Positions 8,687 through 10,864 of a DNA stretch of 64,000 bases are shown piece after piece; the first letter of the stretch is position 1, and each line of letters opens with the position of its first letter. The stretch is from NCBI RefSeq assembly GCF_007993755.1, contig NZ_CP042467.1:3496001-3560000 (forward strand). Reading direction: 5' to 3'. The DNA comes from Microvenator marinus. Its GTDB lineage: Bacteria; Myxococcota_A; Bradymonadia; Bradymonadales; Bradymonadaceae. Below the pieces are notes generated by a model. It was not told where the DNA came from. It did no database searches and saw nothing but the letters and a program-made list of their open reading frames with translations. The translations under genes were made by a program, and so were the position numbers.

Positions 8687-9492
8687 TGTACTACTCTCTT
8701 TGTTTGCGAACCCAGCGACGCACGACCTTTACCCGGCCAATACCTCGTCGCTAGACGATCGCTCAAATACTCCCGCGCCATCTCAACCGACGCCAAAACG
8801 TCCGGGTTCGATACCAAAGAAGCCGCGATCGCGGAAGAGAGCGCACAGCCGGTACCCCGCACATCGTCCGGAATTCGCGGAAACGCCTTAAGGTCCAAAA
8901 CCTCGGTTTGCCCACGAAGCATCAGGAAATCAGCCACCTCAGAGTCCGTACTCGGAAGGTGGCCCGCTTTCAAAACTATATCCGCGTCAAATGCCGCTAC
9001 CGCCCCTATCAACGCCGCCTCAATATCCTCACGCTCCATCGTCTCGCGACCCGTCAAAACCAGGAACTCGGGCACATTCGGCGTAATCAACGTGGCAACG
9101 TCCAGGATCGGCTCCCAACCATTCGGCTCCCCGCCGGATAACCACATGGCCTTGTCACCGTCTCCAGACGCCATGACTGGGTCGAGCACGATCGGCACAC
9201 TCAGCGCCTTGAGCCGCGAAGCGACACCCGCGGCAATCTCGGCATTTCCAAGCATCCCGATCTTGACCGCATCTATCTTGAGATCGTCCAAGACCGCGTC
9301 AAGCTGGCCGAGGACTTCATCAACTTCTAGCGTCTTGAACCCTTGAACTCCCTGAGAGTTTTGCCAGACCACCGATGTGATCACGGACGCACCCAGGCAC
9401 CCGAAATCGCGGAAAACCCCAAGGTCTGCGGTGATGCCGGCCGCTCCGGTTGGATCGGTGCCAGCAATGGTCAAAACACGCTTAAGGCTCAT
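8683..9492 (-). CDS. thiD: Hydroxymethylpyrimidine/phosphomethylpyrimidine kinase
   Basis: 269 aa, typical length. Family landmarks: LTIAGTDPTGAAGITADLGVFRDFG at the N-terminus (HMP and ATP site), VKIGMLGNAEI, VLDPVMASGDG, and the anion-hole segment DDVRGTGCALSSAIAA near the C-terminus. It phosphorylates HMP and HMP-P to HMP-PP for thiamine synthesis or salvage. Its position inside an operon with an AstD-like dehydrogenase and an MDR oxidoreductase, without other thi genes, is unusual. A TenA homologue that could supply HMP lies 12 kb away (21388-22020). The start overlaps the stop of the small membrane protein gene. Confidence 0.95.
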   Translation of the reverse strand: MSLKRVLTIAGTDPTGAAGITADLGVFRDFGCLGASVITSVVWQNSQGVQGFKTLEVDEVLGQLDAVLDDLKIDAVKIGMLGNAEIAAGVASRLKALSVPIVLDPVMASGDGDKAMWLSGGEPNGWEPILDVATLITPNVPEFLVLTGRETMEREDIEAALIGAVAAFDADIVLKAGHLPSTDSEVADFLMLRGQTEVLDLKAFPRIPDDVRGTGCALSSAIAASLVSNPDVLASVEMAREYLSDRLATRYWPGKGRASLGSQTKRVVQ

Positions 9493-9671
9493 TTCTGAAT
9501 TTGAGCCTGCTCAGCACGCTTTTCTGCTTGTGCCTTCTCGGCGCTGTCGATCTTGTAGGCGAGCAGGGCGCTGCCGATGATGCCGAAGACCATGGTGAGG
9601 ACGGTGTAAAAAATCACCTTGCGTTTGTATTCGGGCGCTGAAGTGTCAGTCTTCTTCCAAGATGTATCCAC
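9489..9671 (-). CDS. Small single-pass membrane protein
   Basis: 60 aa from a GTG codon at 9671, chosen because AGGA lies just upstream and the hairpin element at 9712-9745 would otherwise be translated. The protein is a short charged head (VDTSWKKTDTSAPEYKRK), one membrane helix (VIFYTVLTMVFGIIGSALLAYKI) and a charged Ala/Glu/Gln/Lys-rich tail that is probably a short coiled coil. Its TGA overlaps the thiD ATG (ATGA), making it the first gene of the thiD operon. The function is unknown; the coupling is the main reason to accept it as a real gene. Confidence 0.65.
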   Translation of the reverse strand: MDTSWKKTDTSAPEYKRKVIFYTVLTMVFGIIGSALLAYKIDSAEKAQAEKRAEQAQIQK

Positions 9672-9711
9672 GGTCGTTCCTGTAAATCGTGTGTTGGGCA
9701 AGGTATACCAC

Positions 9712-9745
9712 GTAGAGGAGGGCTTTGTCCTCCTCAGATGGGCGT
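9712..9745 (+). repeat. GCTCTGT-loop hairpin, copy A
   Basis: GTA followed by stem GAGGAGG (9715-9721), loop GCTTTGT, stem CCTCCTC (9729-9735), then AGATGGGCG. It lies 41 bases upstream of the small membrane protein start, that is, in the 5' leader region of the thiD operon (read on the opposite strand). Confidence 0.75.
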
Positions 9746-9811
9746 AGGCAAAGGCTATAAACACCCACATGCGGAACAACGCACAAAGAAACTCAAAATT
9801 CCCCAACAAAG

Positions 9812-9844
9812 ATAAACATTGTTTACAAAGTAAACTTTGTTTAC
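9812..9844. promoter_or_regulatory. Operator-like array of alternating GTTTAC/GTAAAC half-sites
   Basis: Half-sites ATAAAC (9812-9817), GTTTAC (9821-9826), GTAAAC (9830-9835) and GTTTAC (9839-9844) alternate in orientation with exactly 3 bases between them (9-base period), so overlapping palindromes form. This is a typical layout for a TetR-like or other dimeric repressor binding cooperatively. It lies in the divergent region between the thiD operon and the fatty-acid-hydroxylase gene and overlaps the predicted promoter of the latter. Confidence 0.55.
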
Positions 9845-9850
9845 TATTGT
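9822..9850 (+). promoter_or_regulatory. Predicted sigma70-type promoter of the hydroxylase gene
   Basis: -35 TTTACA (9822-9827), 17-base spacer, -10 TATTGT (9845-9850), about 90 bases before the ATG at 9945. The -35 box and spacer coincide with the alternating half-site array, so a bound repressor would block RNA polymerase. Confidence 0.4.
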
Positions 9851-9944
9851 ACATGGAGTTGGGTAGTAATCATAGAGGCGCATACGCGGACGGAGCCAGG
9901 GTAGACAGAACTCAGATTACGAAACCTCAAGCAGAAAGGTGACC

Positions 9945-10505
9945 ATGTCTATATTCGGATTACTATTAGGATTTCTAGCAGGCGCCACGGCTTGGACCTT
10001 GACCGAATACGGCCTGCACCGAGGCTATGGTCACAAAGGGGGATCTAAGAACCCCTTCACCGTAGAACATCTGGCCCACCACACCGACATCATGTACTTC
10101 GCGCCTGGTTGGAAGAAGTTTGGCGCTGCATTCCTCGTGCTGGGCATCACAGGCCCGCTTCTCTACCTCGCTACGGGAATCTACGGCATTGCCGCCTCCT
10201 TGGGATTTGCGCTCACCTATCTTACCTACGAATTCATCCACAAAAGGCTACATACGCACGGGCCAAAAACTCGCTACGGACGTTGGGCCAGAAGGCATCA
10301 CCTCTACCACCACTACAAACGCCCGAACCTCAACCACGGCGTGACCACGCCCATCTGGGATGCCGTGTTTGGAACTCTCGAAGTCCCGCCAAAGATCGTC
10401 GTTCCGAGGAAAAAAGCGCTGCCTTGGATGTTGAATGAGGAAGGGGAAATGCGGGCGGAGTACGCCGAAGACTTTGAACTACATAGTCCACGCGTCGCAA
10501 ACTAA
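9945..10505 (+). CDS. Fatty acid hydroxylase / sterol desaturase superfamily membrane enzyme
   Basis: 186 aa from ATG 9945 (AGAAAGG five bases upstream; the GTG two codons earlier lies inside that RBS). Two hydrophobic hairpins (SIFGLLLGFLAGATAWTLTEYGL and the FGAAFLVLGITGPLLYLATGIYGIAASLGFALTYLTYEFI region) carry the His clusters of diiron membrane hydroxylases: TEYGLHRGYGH, EHLAHHTD, EFIHKRLHTHG and RRHHLYHHYKRPNLNHG. This class inserts oxygen into acyl chains, sterols or carotenoids; the short length fits fatty-acid or carotenoid hydroxylases. The operator-like array upstream suggests lipid-responsive control. The substrate is unknown. Confidence 0.85.
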   Translation: MSIFGLLLGFLAGATAWTLTEYGLHRGYGHKGGSKNPFTVEHLAHHTDIMYFAPGWKKFGAAFLVLGITGPLLYLATGIYGIAASLGFALTYLTYEFIHKRLHTHGPKTRYGRWARRHHLYHHYKRPNLNHGVTTPIWDAVFGTLEVPPKIVVPRKKALPWMLNEEGEMRAEYAEDFELHSPRVAN

Positions 10506-10517
10506 CTCGCCGCAAAC

Positions 10518-10805
10518 TCAGGATACGATCTTGAGTCTTTCGCCGATCGTGGCGTGAATGGTGGCTGCGGCCGACTTCTCAGTACCTTCGGTGAGCCAGA
10601 CACCGTGGGGTTGAATACCCATAACCGGTGCCTTTTTGCATTGGCCAGTGCACTTCGTCTTCACGATCATGGTTTCTCGGTGCGCGCCAAGATCTTTGAG
10701 GGCTGACTTGACGCCGCATAGCACGTCCTTGGCCCCATTCTTTTTGCAGTCTTTGCCCTGGCAAACCAAGACAACATTTTGAATTTTCCGAAGGTCTCTG
10801 GCCAT
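10518..10805 (-). CDS. (2Fe-2S) thioredoxin-like ferredoxin
   Basis: 95 aa from ATG 10805, chosen because GGAGGAG lies 4 bases upstream. Cys residues CQGKDCKKNG (C-x4-C) and KCTGQCKKAP (C-x3-C) form the four-Cys pattern of thioredoxin-fold 2Fe-2S ferredoxins (NuoE-like/Shethna type), followed by GIQPHGVWLTEG. It is an electron carrier or iron-sulfur sensor in the cytoplasm. A 19-base palindrome resembling a Fur box lies 41 bases upstream, so iron control is likely. Genes on both sides do not reveal a partner enzyme. Confidence 0.88.
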   Translation of the reverse strand: MARDLRKIQNVVLVCQGKDCKKNGAKDVLCGVKSALKDLGAHRETMIVKTKCTGQCKKAPVMGIQPHGVWLTEGTEKSAAATIHATIGERLKIVS

Positions 10806-10845
10806 GCACTCCTCCATAACCAAGTTCGAAAAGGACACTAATGAA

Positions 10846-10864
10846 ATTGAAAATGATTTTCAAT
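10846..10864. promoter_or_regulatory. Fur-box-like palindrome
   Basis: ATTGAAAATGATTTTCAAT is a perfect 9-1-9 inverted repeat matching the Fur family pattern (AATGATAATCATT-like). It is placed 41-59 bases upstream of the ferredoxin start codon, where it would overlap the promoter. Confidence 0.65.

Follow-up and report, generated by a model that had tools for sequence, protein, structure and literature searches.

Two predicted tandem TetR operators before a membrane hydroxylase gene of Microvenator marinus, probably served in trans by a regulator from an amidohydrolase operon

QacR is a TetR-family precedent for an operator that takes more than one dimer. DarR is described with two dimers on overlapping palindromes of one operator (PMC10636190), and DesT and MadR are described as TetR-type regulators of lipid enzymes that respond to acyl-CoAs (PMC8872791; PMC3462791). 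The class Bradymonadia, to which Microvenator marinus belongs, is placed in the Myxococcota (PMC11509652). Here we analysed a window of 64,000 nucleotides from the chromosome of this bacterium (positions 3,496,001 to 3,560,000 of NZ_CP042467.1), in which an array of half-sites lies before the gene of a membrane hydroxylase (Table 1). We find it very probable that this array, at 9812-9844, represents two tandem operators for a TetR encoded far away at G000:C1:1766340-1767038, which would control the hydroxylase in trans.

Table 1. Features of the hydroxylase locus, in window coordinates
Feature	Position	Strand	Description
Predicted operator unit 1	9812..9826	.	ATAAACattGTTTAC; 11/12 letters of GTRAAYnnnRTTYAC, a motif defined from relatives
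AAA spacer between units 1 and 2	9827..9829	.	In class relatives mostly AAA or TTT and, by our reading, in the -10 of the TetR gene
Predicted operator unit 2	9830..9844	.	GTAAACtttGTTTAC; palindromic unit of 15 bp without mismatch, its centre lying 18 bp from that of unit 1
Candidate promoter	9822..9850	+	TTTACA-17-TATTGT, overlapping both units; 9/12, weak evidence
Fatty-acid-hydroxylase family membrane enzyme, proposed controlled gene	9945..10505	+	PF04116; 186 aa

The array reads ATAAAC at 9812, GTTTAC at 9821, GTAAAC at 9830 and GTTTAC at 9839, with half-site spacers att, aaa and ttt. A preliminary description of this DNA had reported four GTTTAC/GTAAAC half-sites alternating in direction with an exact 9-base period; the period and the alternation stand, and the first half-site carries A for G, hence a score of 23/24 against the alternating GTAAAC/GTTTAC model of period 9. 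In six simulated sequences of 5.85 Mb with the dinucleotide make-up of the window, matches of at least 19/24 occurred 0.33 times on average and none reached 20/24. Short repeats are common and the promoter scan given below did no better than chance, as would suit a chance repeat or a non-regulatory inverted repeat; such an origin is nevertheless extremely improbable in view of the simulations, and is already contradicted by the conservation of the motif before 31 of 39 TetR genes of relatives. An RNA element was also discarded as a reading of the region, since nothing in 9400-10600 matched Rfam at the gathering score.

Searching the genome with the pattern RTRAAYnnnRTTYACnnnRTRAAYnnnRTTYAC, with up to 3 mismatches allowed, returned exactly two places, the array of the window and G000:C1:1767051-1767083 (GTAAACaatATTCACtgtGTAAACattGTTCAC), with 0 for the reversed pattern used as control. 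The second array ends 12 bp from the start of a 233-aa TetR gene on the minus strand, on the same chromosome and 1.74 Mb from the hydroxylase, and the two perfect 15-bp units of this putative promoter lie between a TTGACA and the start, as judged from sequence evidence only. A further copy with a TetR-type gene nearby had been predicted in the preliminary description, which had named a lack of other sites in the genome and of conservation in relatives as the outcome that would speak against it; both a second site and conservation were found. The N-terminal helix-turn-helix of this TetR matches PF00440 (TetR_N, E 1.8e-7) and its C-terminal ligand/dimer domain PF13305 (TetR_C_33, E 7.9e-8), both above cut-off. 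Its NCBIfam matches are all far below cut-off, and its 14 PDB matches, several of them without a specific name, include none named DesT, FabR or MadR. A gene for a 574-aa amidohydrolase (Amidohydro_3) follows on the same strand, 14 bp behind. Exact single 15-bp units occur at three other places in the genome (reversed control 1), two of them in predicted coding regions and one in a 16S rRNA recognised from its sequence; the regulon therefore comprises two promoters at this stringency, and a wider one was rejected on these grounds.

Another regulator with a similar specificity could conceivably bind the array at the hydroxylase, since other TetR-like proteins are likely in the genome, with 14 (E 1e-6 search) and 26 (profile search) first-look candidates, and the hydroxylase is unlinked to the TetR at 1767 kb. 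We regard this as quite improbable: the genome has a single protein of this TetR subfamily, by the E 1e-6 search and by the profile at E 1e-20, the promoter of that protein holds the only other array, and the subfamily is linked to this hydroxylase in many relatives. Returning to the TetR at 1767 kb, the hydroxylase has no adjoining TetR and has kept the operator, and is therefore probably controlled in trans; as this TetR adjoins the amidohydrolase and not the hydroxylase, the case for control of the hydroxylase is carried by the shared operator.

The preliminary description had named the gene downstream of the array a hydroxylase, and the profile match bears this out (E 2e-15, 57.8 bits against a cut-off of 31). 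Its best start is the ATG at 9945, with GAAAGG 11 nt before it. The protein has no NCBIfam match and a distant likeness to yeast Scs7 (chains 4zr1 and 4zr0, E 4e-9 and 1e-8), and the histidines H25, H30, H42, H45, H46, H99, H103, H119, H122 and H123 are invariant in 13/13 aligned rows, which comprise the window protein together with homologues from 12 of the 20 top-scoring loci elsewhere. These histidine clusters are presumably the ligands of a di-metal site. An OlsE-like ornithine-lipid hydroxylase was considered as its identity and rejected, an OlsB-type N-acyltransferase (PF13444) having no match in the genome, though other routes may exist. As to the promoter, the preliminary description had called the -35/-10 pair good. 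TTTACA (9822-9827) and TATTGT (9845-9850) are indeed present, but the word was too strong for a pair scoring 9/12, when chance alone would give 0.8 of them over a scan of 1,081 bases. The ancestral TetR -35, a TTGACA 11 nt before the array, is replaced by CCCCAA at the window hydroxylase, whose promoter is therefore another one, perhaps this TTTACA/TATTGT pair.

Two neighbouring frames were also noted. The short minus-strand frame at 9492-9677, divergent from the hydroxylase and about 140 bp from the array, would start at a GTG and yield about 60 aa, including a stretch that resembles a membrane segment and giving no Pfam match; the frame continues without a stop through the array as far as an ATG at 9854, and could be under the same operators as the hydroxylase. 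Immediately upstream of another minus-strand frame, 10518-10838, which encodes a thioredoxin-like 2Fe-2S ferredoxin, ATTGAAAATGATTTTCAAT at 10846-10864 is palindromic except at its centre base. This Fur-box-like sequence suggests iron control of the ferredoxin frame, a convergent neighbour of the hydroxylase.

Homologues of the hydroxylase were found in 29 of the 57 genomes searched, its own included (E 1e-3), and neighbours were read for the 20 best loci in other genomes of the class (L006-L025) and for 9 weaker ones (L026-L034). A homologous TetR precedes the hydroxylase in 11 of these 20 (L006, L007, L008, L009, L010, L013, L014, L015, L018, L022 and L025), often with the TetR stop and the hydroxylase start overlapping or nearly so. 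The other nine, among them L017 where the contig ends, have no such TetR adjoining and no array (best score 14/24), and the 9 weaker loci have neither a TetR of this subfamily nor an array. Among the other loci read, no hydroxylase that lacks an adjoining TetR has an array, and the proposed trans arrangement is, within this set, known from the window's genome only. At two of the nine loci (L011 in G055, L012 in G047) a different TetR, more distantly related, is encoded divergently from the hydroxylase and the GTRAAY array is absent; the hydroxylase may have been put under another TetR there.

The TetR profile matched in 61 of 282 genomes that form a sample of the phylum (E 1e-20). The hydroxylase adjoins the TetR at 15 of the 20 best TetR loci outside the class; in a further set of 42 loci, for the most part weaker and mostly read as stretches of about 2 kb, it does so at 16. 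The two 20-locus sets are best-scoring matches and their linkage rates are thus higher than that of the further set, and contigs ending inside an operon (L007, L017, L045, L047 and L161) limit the adjacency counts. A scan of named genomes returned only one distant hydroxylase, from a Polyangiaceae MAG, and a plasmid search returned three Streptomyces clavuligerus records with 39.5% identity.

The conserved element of the TetR genes is a perfect unit of the form GYRAAYnnnRTTYRC, found upstream of 11/15 genes in the main clade of the class, 3/4 in a second clade of the class and 17/20 beyond the class, with dinucleotide shuffles giving means of 0.0, 0.0 and 0.01 genes for the three sets and about 0.01 for the whole. 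These counts omit L045 and 7 of the 27 loci of the E 1e-6 search, namely six distant ones (L049, L050, L058-L061) and the C-terminal fragment L056. The second-clade miss (G023:C411) has a perfect unit further upstream, and in a fifth member of that clade (G022:C680) the array lies after the TetR and before an amidohydrolase. A second unit, matching at least 11/12 and 15 to 60 bp away, accompanies the first in 5/15, 3/4 and 11/20 genes of the three sets, most often at a spacing of 18 bp and otherwise at 19, 22, 32, 33 or 43 bp, the last in G056:C674 and G045:C17. No unit at 11/12 or better was seen in 21 of the 82 TetR loci read. The motif is thus conserved in relatives, although its place in them is ahead of a TetR gene that comes first in the operon.

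Because units are single or widely spaced in some relatives, we take the 15-bp palindrome as the unit, and the most fitting reading of the array at 9812-9844 is a pair of tandem TetR operators, each of 15 bp and spaced by 18 bp, of which the inner GTTTACaaaGTAAAC palindrome is a by-product. We rejected this inner palindrome as the functional unit, as G056:C674, G045:C17 and G023:C411, where units are single or widely spaced, keep GYRAAYnnnRTTYRC instead. The regulatory reading of the preliminary description, a repressor-type operator array before the hydroxylase, therefore appears largely right, its promoter being revised and its geometry becoming two tandem GTRAAYnnnRTTYAC units. In main-clade genes TTG starts exactly 11 nt before the array in 13/15, with TTGACA in 7 (the exceptions are G045:C47 and G027), and beyond the class a TTG at this distance is seen for 11 of the 18 genes having a unit. 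By our reading, a 17-nt spacer from this TTG puts the -10 on TAC and the AAA or TTT spacer, and in class relatives the inter-unit spacer is mostly AAA or TTT and falls in the -10 of the TetR gene. The operator seems to sit across the core promoter of the TetR gene, where the A/T spacer may at the same time serve as part of the -10.

The operator of the window could also be a relic of a lost TetR-hydroxylase operon, now unbound or functionless, considering that the hydroxylase has no neighbouring TetR and that the ancestral -35 was not kept. Decay would be expected without use, however, and the array is among the best preserved seen, with one perfect unit and one with a single departure, when many relatives keep just one good unit; we judge a relic marginally less probable even than a different regulator, and retain two operators in use by the TetR at 1767 kb as the preferred reading.

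Array-like sequences were seen in other contexts as well. G004 has two TetRs of the subfamily, L008/L051 (G004:C62) with an operator of GTAAAAggcATTCAT type and L036 (G004:C50) with one of GTAAATggtGTTTAC type, as if these paralogues had diverged in specificity. Further array-like matches occur in G009:C266 (L082), in G023:C389 (L088, by our reading preceding a lipoprotein-like gene), in contigs 12, 43 and 46 of G004 and in G022:C960, and G043 has seven, where the reversed control gave 11. In G009 the match (L082 1492-1524) is GTTAACGGCGTAAACTAAGTTTACGCCGTTAAC, a palindrome of 33 bp with only the centre base departing from symmetry and with the same 9-bp period; no subfamily TetR is found in that genome at E 1e-6, and the palindrome possibly serves another regulator.

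The protein side of the proposed interaction points the same way. The segment L-T-V-G-A-L-Y-R-Y-F, which we assume to be the recognition helix of the TetR at 1767 kb, has Thr (residue 47) at its second position. In a first set of 40 loci we noticed a correspondence between this residue and base 3 of the half-site, fixed the rule in writing and then read 42 further loci, the criterion being A at base 3 of some half-site and loci without a unit being set aside (4/40 and 17/42). Such an A was found in 24/24 genes with Thr, 0/9 with Ala or Val and 2/3 with Ser in the first set, and in 13/13, 0/5 and 1/7, respectively, in the held-out set, so that both sets pooled give 37/37 for Thr, 0/14 for Ala/Val and a mixed 3/10 for Ser. 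The residue was taken from the alignment, not from the letter pattern, for 19 held-out rows and one row of the first set, and for L045 the bounds were hand-set around the array lying behind its TetR. Over 51 genes (those with Thr, Ala or Val), a tree from which the helix columns had been removed shows 4 changes of the residue and 4 of the base, and a tree-aware pair test gave 1 supported pair (4 on all branches), too few for significance. In agreement with the rule, the TetR at 1767 kb has Thr and each of the four half-sites of the window operator has A at base 3. With about four independent changes, we take this matching as supportive, not as proof, of the TetR reading the operator.

How the regulator may have come to lie beside an amidohydrolase is suggested by its relatives. 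Close relatives of the amidohydrolase stand beside subfamily TetRs in G004:C50 (78% identity), G022:C680 (57%), G025:C164 (56%) and G045:C17 (54%), with a partial copy (50%) in G056:C674, and are divergent from the TetR in G025:C164, G045:C17 and G056:C674. The genome of another relative (56%, G050:C112) has no such TetR at E 1e-6, and no array was found in the stretch scanned. In the f2/f3 families, TetRs on the amidohydrolase side make up a clade of their own (support 99/100), and GCGAAC/GTTCGC is frequent in their operators. The TetR at 1767 kb and that of G004:C50, though beside amidohydrolases, pair together (99/97) and group with hydroxylase-type TetRs of G011 and G002 (91/93), in a tree with several weak forks and long branches, and both have the hydroxylase-type helix and GTRAAY operators. 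In the simplest history, a hydroxylase-type TetR would have ended up in front of the amidohydrolase in their common ancestor, after which the hydroxylase in the window's genome would have kept the operator only. A relative from outside the class, G260:C75, encodes a TetR, the hydroxylase (43%) and an amidohydrolase (42%) one after another on one strand, a gene row that hints at a shared hydroxylase-amidohydrolase pathway. One could speculate, as a tentative and rather doubtful extension, that in a phylum-wide TetR regulon the hydroxylase hydroxylates and the amidohydrolase cleaves the amide of the same N-acyl lipid, with a repressor that senses this lipid or its acyl part, was re-sited to the amidohydrolase operon and runs both in trans through retained twin operators.

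For the control itself, we infer that TetR dimers on the two units would bind across the hydroxylase promoter and block RNA polymerase, and that the same TetR would bind its own promoter and thereby control the amidohydrolase behind it, a small-molecule ligand releasing it from both. A hydroxylase that is the second gene of the repressor's operon in many relatives would here have come apart from it, the operator staying with each. A lipid signal for this TetR, as raised in the preliminary description, is plausible from the families of the two enzymes.

Among the literature matches listed, half-site letters returned papers unrelated by title, and Bradymonad TetRs returned nothing on this regulon by title; TetR family with fatty acid hydroxylase returned only a Zymomonas survey, and TetR with sterol desaturase repressors in Myxococc- and the WHG domain returned nothing. 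Judged from these searches, the regulon is apparently undescribed, with a mechanism of ordinary kind. An uncharacterised membrane hydroxylase family of the phylum gains with it a candidate regulator, a defined operator and a one-residue/one-base rule. The conservation of the operator looks like outliving gene linkage, so that a regulon may be readable from DNA, and knowing the ligand would reveal the lipid that these bacteria detect ahead of its modification.

Compared with known systems, the window enzyme is like the Scs7 / FA2H-type fatty acid hydroxylases in its PF04116 match and invariant histidine clusters, but differs in its length of 186 aa and is related only distantly. The arrangement resembles QacR and DarR in that more than one TetR dimer would sit on a promoter operator, here with a geometry derived from sequence; whereas the palindromes of DarR overlap, the predicted units here are neighbours whose centres lie 18 bp apart, and certain relatives carry a single unit or a pair separated by 19 to 43 bp. 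With DesT, FabR and MadR it would share TetR-type repression of lipid-modifying enzymes, which in those systems serve fatty-acid desaturation, whereas the proposed target here is a hydroxylase-family enzyme, often encoded in the TetR's own operon.
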